A program made the translations under genes and the position numbers. A model generated the notes under the pieces. That model saw nothing but the letters and a program-made list of their open reading frames with translations, had not been told where the DNA came from and did no database searches. A DNA stretch of 45,457 nucleotides from a virus. Below, piece after piece: positions 5,549-34,270 of the stretch. Numbering within the stretch: the stretch's first letter is position 1; the number at the start of each line of letters is the position of its first letter. The stretch covers positions 1 to 45,457 of the IMG/VR virus record IMGVR_UViG_3300044818_000001, one strand, 5' to 3'.

Positions 5549-5620
5549 TGGTGGGCTGCCGGGATTCGAACCCGGATCGCTCCGCATCTGGAGTTATGGT
5601 ATGCCAAACCACTTCAGCCC
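5549..5620 (-). tRNA. tRNA, isotype unclear (abnormal 6-nt anticodon loop)
   Basis: 72 nt including an encoded CCA. Acceptor GGGCTG/CAGCCC, D-arm TGGT-TTGGCAT-ACCA with G18G19-like GG, T-arm CCGGG-TTCGAAT-CCCGG, discriminator A, then CCA. The anticodon stem CTCC/GGAG closes only a 6-nt loop (AGATGC), so no standard anticodon can be assigned, and the 4-nt variable region is short. It may be a decayed or specialised tRNA. It sits 6 nt after the start region of the internal-protein gene's stop side, between that gene and the scaffold gene, in the same orientation. RNase P/Z cutting here would separate capsid-module mRNA from upstream mRNA. Confidence 0.8.
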
Positions 5621-13300: not shown

Positions 13301-15261
13301 GCCTTCTCCCAGCCGGTACCAACCGAGTTGGCCGCCTTCTGCCAAGAGGAGCCGTGAGTCTTGATAGCCTTCTCGAACAGATCGAAGTCCATCATCACGT
13401 GACTGTTGGCGAGCTGCGACATCAGGACCGGCGTAAGCACCATCTTGCCGCCGTCTGCCTCGATCTCCGCCACTCGGATCTGAGTGCCAGGAACCGCAGG
13501 GTTGTCGATCATGGCGCCACCATAGGTCTGCTGCTTCATCGAAGCCTGACCACGAGAGCGGCGTGAAGCCAACTCTCGGTGAAGCCCATCGGCTACCTCG
13601 TGAGACAGCTCGTCGCCAGTACCGACCAACCCGTTCTTCAGGTTGTACCGGTCGACGATGTTGTGAGCGATCTCGGTCTCCATGTTCTGGAGGGTAACGG
13701 TACGACTCTGCTCATCTGCATTCAGATATCGAGAGACGTACATCTCCCGAGCTTCCTTGGACAGTCCAGCAGTCTCGCGAAGCGAGGCGTCCACCTGACG
13801 CCACGACTGAGCGTCGTTCACGTCGATGTAGTGACTCGGACGAATGTCGTTGTACGTGTGGGCCAGGCGGACCACACCACCAAGGCTGAGGTTGTAGATG
13901 TTGTTGACCCGAGCGCTGATGAAGTTCTCGCCCTTGGTCGGCTGGAACCCCCGGTTCTGGAAGGCGCCCTTGACTCGCATGCCAGCAGGAGTGGTGATCC
14001 GGTTGTAGTTCAGATCACCGATCGTGTTGAACGCATTGATCTTGTCCGTGACGATACCGGAGTCCTGATCCAGCTTGGAGATCCACTTGGTCTGCTGGTC
14101 GATCGCAGCCTTGATGCGGACACCTCTCGGACTGGCCTGGACCGCAGGCGAGAGAGAGTCGTAGTAGCTGGAGGCGCTGGAAGTCTTAGATCCAAGCTCA
14201 TTAGCCTGGTAGGCGAGCTGGGAGTTCTTGAACTCCAGCGTGGTCAGAGCCGCCTTGTCGCCCATGGTGACTCGGAGGATGTTCGCTACATCGTTCTTGT
14301 CCGTAGCCTGAGCGAGCAGACGCGCCGTAGGCGCACCATTGGCAGACTTGCGAAGAGTCGGAAGGTCCCGTGCCAGCACCGCTGCTGCGGTGTCTGGCGT
14401 CTTGGTCTTGGTGCTCCAGATCGTGTCGACAAGACCCTGGAAGTTGGACTTCTGAGAGAACCTGTCGTAGGCCAGCTTGTTGACGTCAACAGGAGCGAGA
14501 GTCGTTCCACCCTTCTCGATCGCACTGGTTTCCTTGGCGATCCCGGCCTCGACGTTCTGACCGAACTTGGCACCCTTGACTGCACCGAGACCCTTGCCCG
14601 CCAGCACCAAAGGGTCGGCGTACCAGGAGACTGCGAAGTCTGTGGCTCCAGTCGTCCACTTGCTGGCACCACTACCAAAGTACTCCTGCGAGCGGGTCTT
14701 GATGCCGAGCGGGTCATCCTTGGTCGGAGTGTCCCGGTACTTACCCTCGGACTGGAGTGCCAAGTCTTCGGAGATCTGGTCGGGGCGAATGCCCCGAGCC
14801 TTCAGCTCCTTGTCGTTCATGCCCAGCATCCACAGGGACTGACCGGGACTTACCTTGTGAGCGTAGTTCCAGTAGTCCTTCATGGCGTCCCACTCGCCGT
14901 CCTGACCAATGTACTCAGGACGACCGTAGACCAGGGAGTGAGCGGCCATACCGGCCGCGCTGAAGGCGGGGGAGACTGTAGCGCTGTACGCCTGATAGAG
15001 CTTGGAGCCGACCCACTCGATCGGCTTGAAGATGGGGCTGTCGAACATGCTGCCCTGCTGGGCTGCACGCTGCTCCTTGAGAGCAGCAAGCTGCTGCTGG
15101 GTCATGTCACTGTCGGGATGAGTAGCGTCGATACCCATGCTGGACCAGTACTCGTTCAGAGAGTTGCGCACCGGAGCAGGGAGCTGGTCCATGGTGCCAA
15201 GTCCGTTGAGGACGCCATCGGAGATGATCTCCATGTCCTTCGGTGAGATGTTGCCGCCCAT
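10315..15261 (-). CDS. Giant internal virion / DNA-ejection protein, 1648 aa
   Basis: The largest gene. The product is mostly alpha-helical and charged, with segments such as LEDLANLQASIKADMNTAK and Gln-rich stretches, and lacks an obvious enzyme motif. In podoviruses, single polypeptides of 1000-1700 aa encoded next to virion lysozymes form the internal core and periplasmic DNA-translocation tunnel (T7 gp16-like role); that role is inferred from size, composition and neighbours. Overlaps the 82-codon-frame gene before it by 1 nt and the next by 1 nt. The antisense strand has a long open frame that I treat as a shadow. Confidence 0.78.
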   Translation of the reverse strand: MGGNISPKDMEIISDGVLNGLGTMDQLPAPVRNSLNEYWSSMGIDATHPDSDMTQQQLAALKEQRAAQQGSMFDSPIFKPIEWVGSKLYQAYSATVSPAFSAAGMAAHSLVYGRPEYIGQDGEWDAMKDYWNYAHKVSPGQSLWMLGMNDKELKARGIRPDQISEDLALQSEGKYRDTPTKDDPLGIKTRSQEYFGSGASKWTTGATDFAVSWYADPLVLAGKGLGAVKGAKFGQNVEAGIAKETSAIEKGGTTLAPVDVNKLAYDRFSQKSNFQGLVDTIWSTKTKTPDTAAAVLARDLPTLRKSANGAPTARLLAQATDKNDVANILRVTMGDKAALTTLEFKNSQLAYQANELGSKTSSASSYYDSLSPAVQASPRGVRIKAAIDQQTKWISKLDQDSGIVTDKINAFNTIGDLNYNRITTPAGMRVKGAFQNRGFQPTKGENFISARVNNIYNLSLGGVVRLAHTYNDIRPSHYIDVNDAQSWRQVDASLRETAGLSKEAREMYVSRYLNADEQSRTVTLQNMETEIAHNIVDRYNLKNGLVGTGDELSHEVADGLHRELASRRSRGQASMKQQTYGGAMIDNPAVPGTQIRVAEIEADGGKMVLTPVLMSQLANSHVMMDFDLFEKAIKTHGSSWQKAANSVGTGWEKAVDLADAAGSIWKFAQLFRLGYGPRALADDGLGQIARFGLFSVMDRTIKGGRYTAKDWANGTFLRSRTANAQATAATLDTHLEDLANLQASIKADMNTAKIQGDAAKAASLEDDLKLAVDWAEDARVTRADMDSLLKGGQAQQHLQIGRQIFAPAFGGKDGSLFRDLSSGDHNFRNLMGSQADFYLDRMRRLDWENITPAQHGAEKHMQSWLHVVNNQVSNDALAVQHLGGKSPRQLETWLAATPEGRAYAASAPLKNLPRNEMVKRVTAQVDEWLNPAFPNSGAFREAARTGTVTEDMLKEVPENVRPMVNSQALSYAKGNHPAAELMDRAMTGYYNVMNQIPARKLLRHPLFAQRYKIHLKSSYNKMALKGETHIEEGFRQKLEHSARMQALDDVKKNTFNMDFETKMAYNMRHFGAFFGAQQESWNRWARIISDKPDILPRVAQVYGAPTRAGMVVDQGGNRVSEDGTVTDPITGEKRLVDYSDRNILFQVPDFLGGKALNKALGIDENAKLKIPMSTAEIILNHGDGALPVGAGPIVQVAANNIPYTDMDANGDPKLADIYQKLGILPMGPDQSNWHLLQPNIMKRQEATDEMNDTYQKSMFYIMQAETFKYDQHMRKTQPTWGEIKDRASRWTAMRSIFAGVLPFSLNSQDPYQFFRDQYKQMQETDPKGADQKFYDKYGDSSYIFSQSMSKNNSGLKPTSEAVYASKYYQDLIQKVGPQWAGLVVGAEGEGVYSNGAFYYEKTHSADGVSGITNRTNMTAREAFDESKRGQGWRQYQSYMNGLYGDLFARGLQSFDDPGAEDLKSQKQALVQTLSSPRIIGDDGEMKDNEYYNEQWTKDYSSLDKTYYDRAAQSLRAVTDDPEIWSKAVNPDGSTGMRSDIYTLKTYLSYRDDVKRALLLRNEAGGSEDINAGVNADIKQQWNSLVVKLIEQDTKFADLHSRYLSRDLGFDEDTVVQQQSQGALPEFQGDTSSTQEQSIFDVLAQQGGV

Positions 15262-23183: not shown

Positions 23184-23231
23184 TACGAGGCTCTGTACGG
23201 CCCCCTGAGGGGCCGGAATGACAGCTAGGTA

Positions 23232-23273
23232 GTCTGACCGGCAGGCATCTACGTTCGAGCCGTAGACAGGCAC
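23232..23273 (+). ncRNA. Mini-tRNA-like element 0
   Basis: Acceptor GTCTG/CAGGC (5 bp with one G-U), 11-nt linker ACCGGCAGGCA, T-arm TCTACG-TTCGAGC-CGTAGA (6 bp, 7-nt loop), then AC. It starts 48 nt after the upstream stop. No anticodon arm. Stem sequences differ from the other copies while pairing is kept. Confidence 0.8.
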
Positions 23274-23275
23274 TG

Positions 23276-23294
23276 AGGGCCCAGGAAGGGCCCT
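23276..23294 (+). other. Hairpin following tRNA-like element 0
   Basis: AGGGCCC-AGGAA-GGGCCCT, a perfect 7-bp stem starting 2 nt after the tRNA-like element and ending 18 nt before the next ATG. No U-tract of note. Confidence 0.65.
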
Positions 23295-23312
23295 TGTTCC
23301 AAGGGAGTGGAC

Positions 23313-23750
23313 ATGGCAAAGAACCTCGGAACCATCTGGGTTTGCCGAGACTGCATGCTGCACCATGCGAATGGTGAGTGCGGCGACTGTCACGATGACG
23401 ACTACGGTCACGACCGTGAGCCGTGGAGTCACCTGGACGGCAACGAGACTGTCACCATGGACAGCGTCGAGCACGATGACTACAGTCGGTCGTCGTGCGA
23501 CGGATGTGGCTCTTACCTCCACGGTGAGCGTCACTCGTTCACGTTGTGGCGAGAGAGCACGTACAAAGTGCGCCGCTTCTTCCGGGACGACCCGCAGAAG
23601 GACTTCACGGTCAAGTCGGGCCTCACCCTCGGTGAGGCTCAGGAGCGCTGCAAGAACCCTGAGACATCGTCCTCTACGTGCACCACGACAGAGGGCACCG
23701 ACCGAACGCTCCTGTACGGACCCTGGTTCGATGGGTACTATGAGGAGTAG
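23313..23750 (+). CDS. Cys-rich zinc-ribbon-like protein, 145 aa
   Basis: ATG 23313 preceded by AAGGGAG. Two Cys pairs near the N-terminus (WVCRDCMLHH and GECGDCHDD), then CDGCGSYLHGERH in the middle, so one or two zinc sites are likely. The rest is a basic segment followed by a polar Thr/Ser stretch. Probably nucleic-acid or protein binding; no named family recognised. Confidence 0.75.
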   Translation: MAKNLGTIWVCRDCMLHHANGECGDCHDDDYGHDREPWSHLDGNETVTMDSVEHDDYSRSSCDGCGSYLHGERHSFTLWRESTYKVRRFFRDDPQKDFTVKSGLTLGEAQERCKNPETSSSTCTTTEGTDRTLLYGPWFDGYYEE

Positions 23751-23755
23751 TCGAA

Positions 23756-23780
23756 ACTCCAGCACTAGCGGTGCTGGAGT
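23756..23780 (+). other. Intergenic hairpin
   Basis: ACTCCAGCA at 23756-23764 pairs with TGCTGGAGT at 23772-23780 (9 bp, 7-nt loop) 5 nt after the upstream stop. The 87-nt gap also holds GTGGG/CCCAC. No T-arm is present, so this gap lacks the tRNA-like element of its neighbours. Confidence 0.6.
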
Positions 23781-23837
23781 CTGTGGGATCTGACCTACCC
23801 ACACTGATGAGACAGGTCGACAAGGGAAGAGGACAAG

Positions 23838-24254
23838 ATGATTAAGATCACTGCTGAGTCCGTCAGGGCTGGCCTGCTTGCACTGGTCAAGCAGGAGGGT
23901 GGAGACTTCATCTACACCCCCAAGCCTCCGACCGACGACGAAGAGGGTCAGATCAATGCCCGGTGCGTCTACGTTCACCAGGGCAAGCCTGACTGCATCG
24001 TCGGTCGGTTCCTGCACGGTCAGGGCGTGTCCCTGGAAGTGCTGACCGAGGCGGACAAGTATGAGTTCGGTGGCGGCTTGTCCGCCATTGAGCTCATCAA
24101 CCGGCTGCGTGATGGGGGCGTTATCAGCATGACGCCCGAAGCCGCCCGTGCCCTGACTACGGCACAGTATGAGCAGGACCAACTGAGCATGTGGGGAGTC
24201 GCCGTTGAGCGAGCTCTTCGCTACATCCCTTCCCCCGCTGGTGACTTGTCCTAG
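23838..24254 (+). CDS. Hypothetical early protein, 138 aa
   Basis: Begins MIKITAESVRAGLLALVKQE. It contains CVYVHQGKPDCIVGRFLHGQG and a C-terminal Gln/Glu-rich helix (TAQYEQDQLSMWGVAVERAL). Length and style resemble small phage proteins of the early region with no assigned role. Followed by tRNA-like element 1. Confidence 0.75.
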   Translation: MIKITAESVRAGLLALVKQEGGDFIYTPKPPTDDEEGQINARCVYVHQGKPDCIVGRFLHGQGVSLEVLTEADKYEFGGGLSAIELINRLRDGGVISMTPEAARALTTAQYEQDQLSMWGVAVERALRYIPSPAGDLS

Positions 24255-24288
24255 CGAGGGGAGACAGGGCCACTAAATAGGCCCGATA

Positions 24289-24330
24289 GCCCGAAAGGCA
24301 TACATCAGGGTTCGAGTCCCTGACGGGCAC
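24289..24330 (+). ncRNA. Mini-tRNA-like element 1
   Basis: Acceptor GCCCG/CGGGC, linker AAAGGCATACA, T-arm TCAGGG-TTCGAGT-CCCTGA, then AC. A second GCCCG lies 8 nt upstream (24281-24285), giving an alternative acceptor strand; the register chosen reproduces the 5-11-19-5 geometry of the other copies. Confidence 0.82.
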
Positions 24331-24333
24331 GCT

Positions 24334-24360
24334 CTGACACGCCCCAAGCGTGTCAGTTTT
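24334..24360 (+). terminator. Terminator-like hairpin after tRNA-like element 1
   Basis: CTGACACGC-CCCAA-GCGTGTCAG, 9 bp, followed by TTTT. This is the only element-associated hairpin in the series with a clear U-tract. It may give partial termination before the candidate lipoprotein gene. Confidence 0.65.
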
Positions 24361-24376
24361 AGGGAAGGGACAAAAG

Positions 24377-24667
24377 ATGCGCAAGAGTGATACATCCCTG
24401 ATCGCCATGGTGGTGGGGGTGTTCGTCGCTATGTTCATCGTCGTAGCCGTCGTGGCCTGCAATCCCGATGGGGCCAGTCCGAGTGGTGGAGGGTACTACC
24501 CTCACGACACCAGTCACGGCTACTACGACTCGCATCACCACTATCACTACTACCACAAGTACGGTAGTGGCCGCAAGGCGCCCAGAGTGGCCCCTCGTGG
24601 CCGATCCAGTGTGCGACGCGGCAGCAGTGGCGGCTCCGGCTTCAGCAAGTCCGGCCGTCGCCGCTAA
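24377..24667 (+). CDS. Candidate lipoprotein / membrane-anchored protein, 96 aa
   Basis: ATG 24377 with GGAAGGGA upstream. Residues 8-27 form a hydrophobic segment ending VVAC at Cys28, which matches a lipobox; Arg2-Lys3 precede it. After the Cys, a His/Tyr-rich patch (DSHHHYHYYHKYGSG) is followed by an Arg/Ser/Gly-rich tail. If lipidated, it would sit outside the membrane. Phage early lipoproteins can block superinfection, but this role is only a guess. Plain single-span membrane protein is the alternative. Confidence 0.7.
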   Translation: MRKSDTSLIAMVVGVFVAMFIVVAVVACNPDGASPSGGGYYPHDTSHGYYDSHHHYHYYHKYGSGRKAPRVAPRGRSSVRRGSSGGSGFSKSGRRR

Positions 24668-24677
24668 CAGCAAGGTA

Positions 24678-24719
24678 GCCCTACCGGCAGACACTCAGGT
24701 TCGAGTCCTGAGAGGGCAC
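24678..24719 (+). ncRNA. Mini-tRNA-like element 2
   Basis: Acceptor GCCCT/AGGGC, linker ACCGGCAGACA, T-arm CTCAGG-TTCGAGT-CCTGAG, then AC. It starts 11 nt after the upstream stop. Same 42-nt geometry as elements 0, 1, 3, 4 and 6. Confidence 0.83.
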
Positions 24720-24723
24720 TGGA

Positions 24724-24740
24724 AGCGCCGCAGGGGCGCT
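24724..24740 (+). other. Hairpin following tRNA-like element 2
   Basis: AGCGCC-GCAGG-GGCGCT, 6 bp, between the element and an AGGAGG ribosome-binding site. Confidence 0.6.
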
Positions 24741-24755
24741 GTCCAAGGAGGAATG

Positions 24756-25187
24756 ATGAGCAGCAGCTTCAGGACGTACTACATGGACGACGCTGTCTTC
24801 AACCTGGGCAATGTGATCGAGACCGCACAGGAGCGTCTTGCTGGTGTCAACTTCGATACGCTGGTCGGTACCGGTTTCTCCGGTAGCATCGTGGTTCCCT
24901 CCCTCGCCCTCGCGATGGGCAAGAAGTTCGTCCTGGTCCGCAAGGACACCGACGACAGTCATCACGGAGGCGGACGACTGCTTGGCGATCTCGGCTCCCG
25001 CTGGATCTTCGTGGACGACTTCGTGTCGTCCGGTCGGACCCGAGAGAGGGTGATGGACAAGCTCGACCTTGCGGCCCGAGAGTCGGAAGGGCCCACAGAG
25101 ATGGTCGGGCAGTACATGTACGTAAGCTATTCAGCGAACGGTCCGAGGTTCGAGCACTTCGAGTCCGAGTGGCTGGAAAAGTACTGA
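24756..25187 (+). CDS. Phosphoribosyltransferase-fold protein, 143 aa
   Basis: The second of two adjacent ATGs is 4 nt from AGGAGG and is preferred. Residues 34-50 (DTLVGTGFSGSIVVPSL) form the PRTase first loop; residues 83-95 (WIFVDDFVSSGRT) match the PRPP-binding motif with its acidic pair. LVRKDTDDSHHGGG may form the flexible loop. Type I PRTases use PRPP to make or salvage nucleotides, and some regulate RNA. The substrate cannot be read from sequence. It is flanked by tRNA-like elements 2 and 3. Confidence 0.85.
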   Translation: MSSSFRTYYMDDAVFNLGNVIETAQERLAGVNFDTLVGTGFSGSIVVPSLALAMGKKFVLVRKDTDDSHHGGGRLLGDLGSRWIFVDDFVSSGRTRERVMDKLDLAARESEGPTEMVGQYMYVSYSANGPRFEHFESEWLEKY

Positions 25188-25198
25188 TGATCAACCTA

Positions 25199-25240
25199 GC
25201 CTGAACGGCATACACTCTGGTTCGAGTCCAGGGCAGGCAC
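25199..25240 (+). ncRNA. Mini-tRNA-like element 3
   Basis: Acceptor GCCTG/CAGGC, linker AACGGCATACA, T-arm CTCTGG-TTCGAGT-CCAGGG (one U-G), then AC. It starts 12 nt after the PRTase stop. Confidence 0.82.
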
Positions 25241-25242
25241 TG

Positions 25243-25263
25243 CGACACGCTTGAAGCGTGTCG
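25243..25263 (+). other. Hairpin following tRNA-like element 3
   Basis: CGACACGC-TTGAA-GCGTGTCG, perfect 8-bp stem, 2 nt after the element and 25 nt before the next ATG. No U-tract. Confidence 0.65.
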
Positions 25264-25288
25264 GGACCAAGGGAATCGGAGAATCAAC

Positions 25289-25870
25289 ATGAGCATCACC
25301 CTCAGCAAGTCGGATGGGGCCAATCCTCTCGACGGCATCACCACCATGGGTGTGGGTGTCTCGTGGGACCCGTCTGCTGGTGGTAAGGGTGGCCTTCTGG
25401 GCCGACTCCGCCGTGAGGTGGGAGTCGACCTGGACCTCATCGCAGTCCTGTTCGTGGACGGTGAGCCGGTTCGGTTCGCTGGCCTGGACTCCCTCGACCC
25501 GCTGGGTAACGGCGGCATCGTGCACTCTGGCGATGCCCAGACCGGCAAGGGTGACGGGGACGATGAGCTGGTGTCGGTACAGTTCGACCGACTTGGCCCG
25601 GTAGACCGCGTGGTCTATGTGGCTGCGGCATTCAAGAACGGATCATCGTTCGAGAAGGCCAACAACATCAGCTTCAAGGTGTACGACTCCTCTGGCGGCA
25701 GTACTACTCAGGTGGCAGACATCTGGCCGTCCCTCCTGGGGACGGACAACGCCAACGCTGTTGCCGAAGCACGCAAGGAGGGTGCATCCTGGGTCCTCGA
25801 AGTGACCAACCGCAAGGGCAAGATCCGTCAGGGTGACAAGCAGTCCATCCTGCGGTTCGCTCAGGGCTAG
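25289..25870 (+). CDS. terD: TerD-family protein
   Basis: 193 aa. Typical TerD features: MGVGVSWDPS, DLDLIAVLFVDGEPVRF, then SLDPLGNGGIVHSGD and GKGDGDDELVSVQFDRL, with acidic residues placed as in calcium-binding TerD proteins, and a C-terminal AFKNGSSFEKANNISF. Ter proteins in bacteria are tied to tellurite and phage resistance and to stress signalling. In a phage it may counter or mimic host stress systems, which is inference. Length agrees with the family (about 190 aa). GGAG precedes the ATG. Confidence 0.92.
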   Translation: MSITLSKSDGANPLDGITTMGVGVSWDPSAGGKGGLLGRLRREVGVDLDLIAVLFVDGEPVRFAGLDSLDPLGNGGIVHSGDAQTGKGDGDDELVSVQFDRLGPVDRVVYVAAAFKNGSSFEKANNISFKVYDSSGGSTTQVADIWPSLLGTDNANAVAEARKEGASWVLEVTNRKGKIRQGDKQSILRFAQG

Positions 25871-25876
25871 AAGGTA

Positions 25877-25918
25877 GGGTGAATGGCATACTCCGGGGTT
25901 CGAGTCCCCGGCGCCCAC
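25877..25918 (+). ncRNA. Mini-tRNA-like element 4
   Basis: Acceptor GGGTG/CGCCC (one U-G), linker AATGGCATACT, T-arm CCGGGG-TTCGAGT-CCCCGG, then AC. It starts 7 nt after the TerD stop. The linker shares TGGCATAC with the D-arm of the complete tRNA at 5549-5620. Confidence 0.83.
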
Positions 25919-25920
25919 TG

Positions 25921-25943
25921 TCTCCTCGCAAAGGGCGAGGAGA
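25921..25943 (+). other. Hairpin following tRNA-like element 4
   Basis: TCTCCTCGC-AAAGG-GCGAGGAGA, perfect 9-bp stem, 19 nt before the next ATG. Confidence 0.68.
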
Positions 25944-25961
25944 TGACTCGCAGGAGTAGGC

Positions 25962-26441
25962 ATGATCGGTAACGAAACCGATGCCAAGTTCATCCGTGAC
26001 TGGTTTGTTGCGAATGGTGAGGGTGACCCTGACTACAGCGAGGCACCCGAAGGCTGGAAGCGCCTTGGGCGTGGCGTATCTCGCATCGCATTCCTCTCTC
26101 CTGAGGGGGTTGCTTACAAGGTTGATCGCTACCCCGATGACGGGTACAGCCAGACGAACGAGAGGGAGGCTGCCAATCTCCGCAAGTTCTACTTGCGGAA
26201 GATGCCCAAGGGCTGCCGCCTTCCCCGCTTCTCGTACTATCCTCTCGACCGCAATGGAGTGATGGCCATGGAGGCTTTCACGACGCTGCTGCGAGACCGG
26301 TACAAGCAAGGGGATGACCGAGACTTGAGGCTCACTGCAACCAGGCTCGGCAAAGCCCTGAACTCGTGGGACATGCACGATCAGAACATCGCCGTAGAGG
26401 AAGGGACCGACACCTTGGTGCCTATCGATCTAGGCATCTGA
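25962..26441 (+). CDS. Mini kinase-like protein A, 159 aa
   Basis: Shows a reduced protein-kinase/APH-like order: glycine-loop-like LGRGVSRIAFLSPEGVAYKV with Lys53, a possible helix-C Glu in NEREAANL, hinge-like MAMEAF, catalytic-loop-like WDMHDQNI (136-143), and PIDLG (154-158) in place of DFG. The chain ends right after this motif, so the usual C-terminal helices are missing. Paralogous to the next gene. Kinase activity is possible but uncertain, since the loop is degenerate. Known relatives would phosphorylate protein, sugar or antibiotic. Confidence 0.72.
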   Translation: MIGNETDAKFIRDWFVANGEGDPDYSEAPEGWKRLGRGVSRIAFLSPEGVAYKVDRYPDDGYSQTNEREAANLRKFYLRKMPKGCRLPRFSYYPLDRNGVMAMEAFTTLLRDRYKQGDDRDLRLTATRLGKALNSWDMHDQNIAVEEGTDTLVPIDLGI

Positions 26442-26447
26442 CTTACA

Positions 26448-26495
26448 GTCCGTCCCTTGGTGGGCTTGTGCGGGTTCGATCCCCGCTGCGGACAC
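26448..26495 (+). ncRNA. Mini-tRNA-like element 5 (with D-arm-like hairpin)
   Basis: Acceptor GTCCGT/GCGGAC (6 bp, last pair U-G), a CCC-TTGGT-GGG mini-hairpin carrying GG in the loop like a tRNA D-arm, then T-arm GCGGG-TTCGATC-CCCGC and AC. It is 48 nt long, slightly larger than the 42-nt copies, and starts 7 nt after the upstream stop. Confidence 0.78.
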
Positions 26496-26497
26496 GG

Positions 26498-26513
26498 GCG
26501 CTCATCAGAGCGC
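26498..26513 (+). other. Hairpin following tRNA-like element 5
   Basis: GCGCTC-ATCA-GAGCGC, 6 bp with a 4-nt loop, followed by an AGGAGG site for the next gene. Confidence 0.6.
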
Positions 26514-26532
26514 TGTCCTTACAGGAGGAATC

Positions 26533-27021
26533 ATGGACGTCGGAAACGCCCACGATGCTGCGCTGATCTATCGATGGCTCTATGAGTCTGAGCGAGAGTA
26601 CGGACGATCTCAGCGTGTATGGGACGCGAAGGCTCCCGATGGCTGGGAGTTCCTCGGGTCAGGCTCGTTCCGTTCGGTGTGGCGCTCCCCTGAGGGAGTC
26701 GCCTACAAGGTTCAACACACCAGCCGCACTTCCCAGTCCAACGAAGGTGAGTACAGGACCCTCCAGGAGGCTCGCCTGTGCAAGCTTCCCGAGAGGGTCA
26801 GGCTGCCGCTGGCTTCGCTGTTCGAGGTCGACAACTGCTTCGTGATCGCTATGGAACTGATCCGTGGCCCCAGGCTGTACGACTACCAAGGGGCAGACCA
26901 GAGTGACCTGATGGAGATTCTCTACGAAGTGGAAGTCACCCTCGAAATGGGCGATCTTCACAGCGAGAACGCCATGGTCGATGAGGATGGAATGCTAGTC
27001 CCTGTCGACTTCGGCTGCTAG
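26533..27021 (+). CDS. Mini kinase-like protein B, 162 aa
   Basis: Better-preserved paralogue of the preceding protein. Gly loop GSGSFRSVW (42-50), Lys59 in VAYKV, IAMELIRGPRL as hinge, GDLHSEN (140-146) matching the APH/kinase catalytic loop with Asp141 and Asn146, and VDFGC at the very end with metal-binding Asp159. It also terminates just after the DFG-like motif. The intact catalytic signatures make ATP-dependent phosphotransfer plausible; the substrate is unknown. AGGAGG lies 7 nt upstream of the ATG. Confidence 0.78.
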   Translation: MDVGNAHDAALIYRWLYESEREYGRSQRVWDAKAPDGWEFLGSGSFRSVWRSPEGVAYKVQHTSRTSQSNEGEYRTLQEARLCKLPERVRLPLASLFEVDNCFVIAMELIRGPRLYDYQGADQSDLMEILYEVEVTLEMGDLHSENAMVDEDGMLVPVDFGC

Positions 27022-27028
27022 GCAGCAA

Positions 27029-27070
27029 GCCCTACTGGCAGACGCTCTGGTTCGAGTCCAGAGAGGGCGC
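27029..27070 (+). ncRNA. Mini-tRNA-like element 6
   Basis: Acceptor GCCCT/AGGGC, linker ACTGGCAGACG, T-arm CTCTGG-TTCGAGT-CCAGAG, then GC in place of AC. It starts 8 nt after the upstream stop. No hairpin follows, and the next ATG is 24 nt downstream. Confidence 0.8.
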
Positions 27071-27094
27071 GCACTACATAGGGAAAGGACTACC

Positions 27095-27247
27095 ATGAAC
27101 GAGCACTACGACTCCTGGGATCAGTGGATCGAGGAGTCCCGCTGCATGATCTGCGGCAGTAACATGAAGTACTCCGATGGGGTTGTGTGCTCTGCCACGT
27201 GTGCAGACGTCCTCGACCTTCGTCAGGGTAACGACTGCTATGCGTAG
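27095..27247 (+). CDS. Cys-rich small protein, 50 aa
   Basis: ATG 27095 after GGAAAGGA. Product MNEHYDSWDQWIEESRCMIC... carries CMICGS and CSATCAD, a four-Cys zinc-binding pattern with 14 residues between the pairs. Probably a zinc-stabilised adaptor or nucleic-acid-binding peptide. Overlaps the next gene by 8 nt. Confidence 0.68.
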   Translation: MNEHYDSWDQWIEESRCMICGSNMKYSDGVVCSATCADVLDLRQGNDCYA

Positions 27248-29274: not shown

Positions 29275-29279
29275 CCCTC

Positions 29280-29339
29280 GGGTAGATCTGAAGTTGGAGA
29301 GGGGTTGATCACCCCGGAGGTTCGAGTCCTCCCTACCCG
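29280..29339 (+). ncRNA. Sixty-nt tRNA-like element 7 (degenerate cloverleaf)
   Basis: Acceptor GGGTAG/CTACCC; D-arm TCT-GAAGTTGG-AGA; anticodon-like arm GGGG-TTGATCA-CCCC; T-arm GGAGG-TTCGAGT-CCTCC joined with no variable loop. The anticodon position would read GAT (Ile), but position 37 is C, the stem has 4 bp and the variable region is missing, so I do not call a decoding tRNA. It is the only plus-strand copy with an anticodon-like arm and seems intermediate between a tRNA and the 42-nt elements. Confidence 0.72.
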
Positions 29340-29340
29340 C

Positions 29341-33294: not shown

Positions 33295-33706
33295 GATTGA
33301 GATCCTGCTCCCGACTGTGCAGTACGGCAACGTGAAGGTGCGGGCTACGCCTGAGGAGCTGGGTCTTCATGGCATCGATAACTCCTACGAGCTGGGTGTA
33401 GCGGCTGCGGTCTATCTGAACCTGTTCTCGCAGGGCTTCAAGACTGGTGCCAAGGTGGACGTGAGCGCCCCTGTAAGCGCCCCGGAGAGCGAGGTGGACC
33501 GGGTCATCGACGAGACCCTGAAGAACGCTCAGAAGCTCGTACAGGACGGCCTTGGGGCTACTGAACTTGGTGAGGTGGATCAGGCTGTCGCCGATCTCGC
33601 TACCACCGAGTCCACGCCTCCCTGGAACTCCACGGTTGACAGTAAGCCGAAGCCGTGGGAGAGTGGAGAGACCGCCCCGAAGGCGGTCGTCTCCGAAGAC
33701 TGGTGA
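33287..33706 (+). CDS. Hypothetical replication-region protein, 139 aa
   Basis: Begins MAEIEILLPTVQYGNVKVRA. The N-terminal half is a beta-alpha domain, and the C-terminal half is a Pro/Ser/Glu-rich tail ending in acidic and aromatic residues (VVSEDW), as is common in ssDNA-binding proteins and their partners. Located between a Cas4-like nuclease and an SSB candidate, so a role in recombination or replication is plausible. Confidence 0.68.
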   Translation: MAEIEILLPTVQYGNVKVRATPEELGLHGIDNSYELGVAAAVYLNLFSQGFKTGAKVDVSAPVSAPESEVDRVIDETLKNAQKLVQDGLGATELGEVDQAVADLATTESTPPWNSTVDSKPKPWESGETAPKAVVSEDW

Positions 33707-34227: not shown

Positions 34228-34270
34228 GGGTGGATGGTCGCAGGACCGGTTCGACTCCGGTCCCACCCAC
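34228..34270 (+). ncRNA. Mini-tRNA-like element 8
   Basis: Acceptor GGGTGG/CCACCC (6 bp), linker ATGGTCGCAG keeping GG, T-arm GACCGG-TTCGACT-CCGGTC, then AC. It starts 7 nt after the upstream stop, as do elements 4 and 5, though it lies 7 kb away from them. No hairpin follows. Confidence 0.8.

Follow-up and report, generated by a model that had tools for sequence, protein, structure and literature searches.

The 45,457-nt virus record IMGVR_UViG_3300044818_000001 (the window; coordinates refer to its plus strand unless stated otherwise) contains a repeated 41-nt tRNA-like element lacking an anticodon arm, the mini-tRNA, which lies between consecutive genes and in most of the window's units is followed closely by a hairpin. 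We consider it likely that this element is a tRNA-style, cis-acting punctuation of polycistronic phage mRNA, which would leave messages with hairpin-capped ends. A covariance model (CM) built for the element detects six copies in the window with scores of 54-65 bits, the next best match scoring 15.8 bits. An earlier note on this DNA had described, between 24254 and 26533, a repeated order of stop codon, tRNA-like element, hairpin, ribosome-binding site (RBS) and start codon; we recovered this order in six units. The span given there does cover five units, but the array has seven and runs from about 23184 to 27095, and the observation is altogether larger than that note described.

A minimal tRNA-like fold

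In the element a 5-bp acceptor stem is joined through an 11-nt D-loop-like linker (N-Y-GGCA-N) to a 6-bp T arm whose loop reads TTCGAN; the consensus is NNNNN-A-N-Y-GGCA-N-N-C-A-(6)-TTCGAGN-(6)-NNNNN-A, followed by C. Loci were fetched with a degenerate pattern and then scanned with a T-arm/acceptor scanner, which required the acceptor and T stems, yielding a collection of 350 copies from 113 loci. The exact geometry, with an acceptor of 5 bp, a linker of 11 nt, a T stem of 6 bp and a loop of 7 nt, was seen in 346 of the 422 tRNA-like scanner matches, and the same combination of acceptor, linker and T-stem lengths did not occur once in block shuffles. The GG at positions 9-10 and the TTC of the T loop are invariant, as in the elbow of tRNA.

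Mutual information recovered every variable stem pair as well as two extra pairs, namely 7:13 and 14:29; the first closes the YGGCA loop and the second joins the linker to the last base of the T loop. Among 67 diverse copies all 13 pairs (13/13) were 100% standard, with a covariation of 0.872 as against 0.200 when shuffled and at most 0.155 when slid. Both extra pairs hold in 100% of these copies and neither was required by the scanner; 7:13 was unconstrained in the search, and for 14:29 the source pattern did no more than limit position 14 to purines and position 29 to pyrimidines. The 13 pairs covary, including the two that the scanner did not require, and the element is therefore a selected RNA fold, with the acceptor stacked on the T arm and a D-loop-like GG predicted to dock on the T loop.

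Of the features that define tRNA (RF00005), the 41-mer has the acceptor stacked on the T arm, the TTCRA loop and the GG of the D-loop, and lacks the cloverleaf with an anticodon arm. ARAGORN found no match in the window and made two calls in eight loci that carry more than 50 elements. Rfam likewise returned nothing in the window at the gathering threshold, and at the E-value level gave a single weak match, to mascRNA-menRNA (RF01684), with 18.1 bits against a gathering cut-off of 42.5 bits. Decayed tRNA genes were considered and rejected, as hundreds of copies retain the exact geometry and pairing. The element thus belongs to no Rfam family and is a previously unclassified structured RNA. A search of the open-access literature found no earlier account of the element, which appears to be undescribed, although an earlier report elsewhere is possible.

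Placement between genes

Of 61 copies in eight annotated stretches, 58 fall between genes, despite an intergenic share of only 8-22% in those regions, and the elements lie on the same strand as the flanking genes. Conversely, 58 of the 89 gaps of at least 60 nt contain an element. The distance from stop codon to element is never below 6 nt and is mostly 6-18 nt, and that from element to start codon is mostly 32-61 nt. In the window it is 6-11 nt past the stop in five of seven units, in agreement with the earlier note, and 48 and 34 nt in the first two. As in tRNA punctuation, tRNA-like units thus stand between cistrons, which would share a transcript. Three copies overlap annotated genes: Amela gp73 (L001 1461-2273) and the Papyrus (L142) genes at 13640 and 34974. 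The starts of these genes have probably been called too early; for Amela gp73 this follows from the genes at that position in Joe and phiScoe45, which start after the element.

Hairpins flanking the element

Across the collection the best downstream hairpin begins 1-4 nt past the discriminator in 200 of 350 copies, against 16 expected, and the best upstream hairpin ends 1-3 nt ahead of the element in 80 copies, against 21 expected. Pairing probability is maximal at +5 (0.82 versus 0.45) and only 0.35 at the RBS. Within the same phages a leader hairpin was found in 34 of 43 genes with an element and in 12 of 28 genes without one (Fisher p=0.0025). In the window, the six units from 23232 to 26448 each have a hairpin of 6-11 bp (G-U extensions counted) after 1-5 unpaired nt, followed by an RBS and a start codon. 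Their stems are mutually unrelated in sequence, as had been noted earlier, and all six score at least 17, whereas a score of at least 15 at that offset occurs in 7.7% of random 45-mers from the window.

Conservation of the hairpins in related phages had been named beforehand as a test of the proposal. A search for relatives with the protein encoded at 25962-26438 found none. Because the Beephvirinae, to which the closest named phages belong, carry no elements (see below), we used Camvirus relatives and the contig L149, which shows 94% identity across the matched portion of the TerD protein. In one type of junction, represented by 14 Camvirus-like copies, 6 of the 9 stem pairs show double changes. 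At two junctions common to the window and L149, those with the hairpins at 23274 and 25243, the stems differ and the hairpins are kept. As the stems have been retained through compensatory change, the objection that they might not be conserved falls away. The L149 junction orthologous to that at 25199 has a mini-tRNA (2900-2954) whose D-loop-like linker is lengthened by a 14-nt insertion, and several junctions of phiHau3 and Lika (L144, L145) place the stop codon in the loop of the upstream hairpin, directly ahead of the mini-tRNA.

Element ends and the rules of processing enzymes

N-1 could pair with the discriminator N73 in 12 of 350 copies, as compared with 76 expected; such pairing shifts the cut site of RNase P (PMC10465520). 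The +1 position after the discriminator is C in 349 of 350 copies, +2 is C in only 10 and CCA follows in 5, and bacterial RNase Z is known to be strongly inhibited by CC or CCA trailers (PMC7479834). The acceptor end is thus sharply delimited, and the unpaired N-1:N73 and the avoidance of CC match the rules of RNase P and RNase Z. RNase P substrates have a 12-bp acceptor/T stack, RCCA and an unpaired N-1; the element has an 11-bp stack, A73-C74 with no CCA, and an unpaired N-1. For RNase Z there is a minihelix with an elbow and no CC or CCA trailer, in line with the published substrate rules (PMC7479834, PMC11996679). RNase E, RNase J and tRNase Z are present in Streptomyces coelicolor, where most CCA-encoding tRNAs are cut between the two Cs (PMC4681348).

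A punctuation model and its alternatives

These features are consistent with a model in which one transcript would pass through several genes and each intergenic mini-tRNA would fold, its GG linker docking on the T loop, and be handled as a pre-tRNA by host tRNA-maturation enzymes. RNase P would cut ahead of nucleotide 1; at the other end RNase Z, or a different nuclease acting on tRNA 3' ends, would cut after the discriminator A41 or after C42. The two cuts would separate the cistrons. The downstream mRNA would then begin 0-4 nt ahead of its hairpin, hindering 5'-end-dependent decay by RNase J or RNase E, and in many phages the upstream mRNA would end 1-3 nt past a hairpin, which would block 3' exonucleases. 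Protection of mRNA from RNase E by 5' stem-loops is attributed to Emory et al. 1992, as cited in PMC3997798. The cleavage and protection proposed by the earlier note gain partial support: the conserved tRNA-like RNA, its intercistronic position, sequence hallmarks of tRNA processing and a hairpin at the distance from the predicted 3' cut that is relevant to 5'-end protection are observed, and from them we infer the cleavage and the stabilization. Protection by 5' stem-loops is limited to ends with few unpaired 5' nucleotides.

Several points weigh against this model. The coaxial helix has 11 bp, as opposed to the 12 canonical for tRNA. RNase P usually favours RCCA and U-1, but the element lacks CCA and A-1 dominates ahead of it. 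RNase Z is reportedly averse to cytidines right after the discriminator, and C+1 is near-invariant here. Minimum free energy (MFE) folding gives the full expected helices in only 123 of 272 copies, a recovery that must be read with the fact that standard energy models ignore tertiary pairs. Finally, a strong adjacent hairpin is missing from about 30-40% of copies, among them the one at 27029, downstream of which an adjacent hairpin was looked for and none found.

A rather unlikely alternative, which also weighs against the punctuation model, would retain the RNA and its cleavage but have the hairpins serve only as insulation that keeps the mini-tRNA from pairing wrongly with adjacent sequence, with no role in mRNA stability. 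The hairpins sit tightly on both sides, and isolated MFE folds often do mispair with flanking sequence. Insulation does not, however, predict that the downstream hairpin should be commoner and stronger than the upstream one and end just before the RBS. Less probable still is an uncut element serving as a compact tRNA-like roadblock (an exonuclease-resistant RNA) or as a ribosome or translation insulator between cistrons. The tertiary pair 14:29 and the elbow imply a stable compact fold and the element begins at least 6 nt past the stop, but the discriminator-like A41, the near-invariant C42 and the avoidance of CC and of N-1:N73 pairing look like rules of processing enzymes for which a roadblock has no need. 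Another possibility, which we regard as improbable, is that the released 41-nt RNA is itself the product, whether as a mimic or decoy that engages tRNA-directed enzymes of the host or anti-phage nucleases against tRNA, or as a small aminoacylatable RNA. This would suit the 2-15 copies per genome and the four-copy arrays with non-coding spacers, but acceptor sequences vary within one genome, placement between genes is strict and flanking hairpins would be needless in trans.

A reading of the hairpins as U-less intrinsic terminators, with a separate promoter for every gene, is very improbable. Such terminators are said to occur in actinophages, and one window hairpin does have TTTT behind it. 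However, across the collection TTTT follows only 1 of 217 strong hairpins, so that the hairpins do not fit the GC stem and U run of an intrinsic terminator, and the array region holds 0 terminator-like sites and 1 sigma-70-like promoter, against 2.2 and 1.5 in shuffles. A terminator just ahead of the RBS would moreover silence the gene, and the approximately 45 nt before each start leave no room for a promoter. The idea that the repeats are DNA-level boundaries for gene shuffling, or repressor/operator sites, with incidental RNA structure fits their flanking of small accessory genes and their modular occurrence in unrelated phages, but can be practically set aside, as the stems vary freely with pairing kept, and this covariation contradicts a DNA-homology or operator site, either of which would conserve sequence.

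Comparison with known systems

The proposed mechanism resembles known tRNA punctuation, and the RNA family that carries it appears to be new. In mitochondrial tRNA punctuation by RNase P and RNase Z/ELAC2, tRNA-like units also lie between cistrons, and the phage units would likewise be cut at both ends; recognition there is via the acceptor/T arm and the elbow (PMC11996679). The mitochondrial units, however, are mostly decoding tRNAs, unlike the anticodon-less 41-mers, which form a dedicated, hairpin-flanked family with predicted cleavage. The mascRNA-menRNA family of MALAT1/NEAT1 is also a non-decoding tRNA-like RNA directing RNase P/RNase Z processing, but it is longer, has another architecture and belongs to nuclear long non-coding RNAs of mammals. 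The mini-tRNA is set apart from both systems by its size, its missing anticodon arm, its tertiary pair and its flanking hairpins. The model minihelix pATSer shares the acceptor, T stem and T loop without an anticodon arm and is cut by bacterial RNase P RNA (PMC10465520). Unlike the mini-tRNA, it is artificial and has no D-loop-like linker. Its stack is of canonical length and it ends in RCCA.

Among phage systems, the SAS/ESAS elements (start-associated sequences) of cluster K mycobacteriophages also recur in intergenic regions ahead of many non-structural genes, and some contain inverted repeats, but they consist of a fixed 13-bp DNA sequence and 17-bp repeats and are not tRNA-like (PMC3203893). 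Identity with SAS was rejected: its 13-bp sequence GGGATAGGAGCCC, which precedes start codons, has 0 matches in the window at up to 2 mismatches. The tRNA clusters of the phages Manuel, Dennebes and Abafar share the T arm and acceptor stem, but hold full tRNAs in the late region, scoring at most 16 bits with the new model.

If the punctuation model is correct, phages would punctuate their operons as mitochondria do, using a dedicated minimal tRNA mimic that annotation pipelines have missed. This would account for the structure of many actinophage early intergenic regions and correct the start-codon calls of Amela gp73 and the two Papyrus genes. Synthetic operons in Streptomyces and mycobacteria could then draw on a compact, naturally occurring module that both cuts and protects, and the mini-tRNA would provide a natural test of how small a substrate RNase P and RNase Z accept.

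Distribution

Many viruses that infect soil bacteria carry the element among their early genes. BLAST searches with the element alone gave matches in phages of Streptomyces and Mycobacterium. Two single-element searches returned 113 Streptomyces phage records each, and among the Streptomyces matches listed most are Arquatrovirinae, e.g. Camvirus, Likavirus and Hautrevirus. Mycobacterium accounted for 28 records in one search; among the matches listed, most are Konstantinevirus and Papyrusvirus and at least two are true tRNAs. About two dozen mycobacteriophages have copies. Further matches were to Riemerella, with single ones in Gordonia and Microbacterium phages, and copies also occur in actinobacterial prophages and in Gemmatimonadota and Bacteroidota elements. 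Twelve phage records that were checked contain 2-15 copies each. A strict pattern run over 85,000 species genomes matched only 12 stretches, mostly from Actinobacteria, together with one Gemmatimonadota chromosome and two Bacteroidota metagenome contigs. Genomes with several strong matches have all of them in one locus each, and any match at all was seen in 12 of 394 actinomycete genomes.

No element was found in phiC31, which was picked since a Joe protein resembles phiC31 gp18, nor, even with a relaxed scan, in Manuel, Dennebes and Abafar. These Beephvirinae are the named phages whose structural proteins come closest to those of the window phage, at about 60% identity. The system is therefore modular and not a fixed trait of the window phage's group; the element is a mobile feature of phages that is not bound to one lineage. 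We give an even chance to the wider proposal that the mini-tRNAs are a widespread anticodon-less class in unrelated phages of Actinobacteria, Gemmatimonadota and Bacteroidota, which would hijack the host's maturation of tRNAs for general cutting between cistrons, by a unit of 3' hairpin, cleavable mini-tRNA and 5' hairpin, giving separately capped mRNAs or, in arrays, small RNAs.

Some loci depart from the usual arrangement. Riemerella phage CRP19 (L139), a Bacteroidota phage, has two mini-tRNAs in one intergenic gap (33507-33547 and 33644-33684) with no obvious adjacent hairpin. Four-copy tandem arrays with copies about 115 nt apart are found in L005 (6615-7002), L132 (6882-7269; Amycolatopsis antarctica) and L048 (2464-2861). 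Their spacers, of about 70 nt, are non-coding and consist of imperfect GGCNNGGC repeats, a protein gene lies just downstream, and they are possibly tRNA-processed small-RNA arrays.

Features of the window

The elements and hairpins are collected in Table 1. The variant at 34228, which lacks a hairpin, also occurs in Konstantine and Oaker.

Table 1. Mini-tRNA elements, related forms and downstream hairpins in the window (ORF, open reading frame)
Feature	Position	Strand	Context and sequence	Support
Mini-tRNA	23232-23272	+	Between ORF ending 23183 and ORF starting 23313	CM 55.8 bits; scanner geometry
Hairpin	23274-23296	+	Core GGGCCC/GGGCCC, loop AGGAA; then RBS, ATG 23313	
Mini-tRNA	24289-24329	+	Between ORF ending 24254 and ORF starting 24377	CM 65.3 bits; MFE fold gives expected stems
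Hairpin	24334-24356	+	9 bp, CTGACACGC/GCGTGTCAG; TTTT directly after; then RBS, start 24377	
Mini-tRNA	24678-24718	+	Stop at 24667, 10 nt upstream	CM 62.2 bits; fold
Hairpin	24724-24740	+	6 bp, AGCGCC/GGCGCT; then RBS, start 24753/24756	
Mini-tRNA	25199-25239	+	Stop at 25187, 11 nt upstream	CM 62.3 bits
Hairpin	25243-25263	+	8-9 bp, CGACACGC/GCGTGTCG; then RBS, start 25289	
Mini-tRNA	25877-25917	+	Stop at 25870, 6 nt upstream; acceptor GGGTG/CGCCC	CM 62.2 bits; fold
Hairpin	25919-25945	+	9-11 bp, TCTCCTCGC/GCGAGGAGA; then RBS, start 25962	
Longer relative	26448-26494	+	6-bp acceptor, 3-bp D arm with GG loop, 5-bp T arm, no anticodon arm	Relaxed scan; fold
Hairpin	26497-26514	+	6-7 bp, GCGCTC/GAGCGC; then RBS, start 26533	
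Mini-tRNA	27029-27069	+	Stop at 27021, 7 nt upstream; next start 27095	CM 54.2 bits
Variant mini-tRNA	34228-34269	+	6-bp acceptor, 10-nt GATGGTCG-type linker, 6-bp T stem	Scanner; 14.8 bits

The genes between the window elements (25289-25870, 24756-25187) include a TerD-domain protein and a weak match to phosphoribosyltransferases. A 62-nt RNA at 29279-29340 (+), missed by ARAGORN and without CCA, folds into a complete cloverleaf; its arms are very short, and one of them, GGGG TTGATCA CCCC, resembles an anticodon arm. The earlier note had extended the order of the repeated unit to a minus-strand tRNA at about 5549-5620, which conforms to it only loosely. That element is of another kind, a tRNA with four arms whose CCA is encoded; the next start codon lies about 120 nt away, and the only hairpin close behind has a long loop. 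The tRNA has a 6-nt anticodon loop and precedes the position of the scaffold gene, where the Beephvirinae relatives carry 14-22 tRNA genes, and it looks like a remnant of a Beephvirinae-type tRNA cluster.

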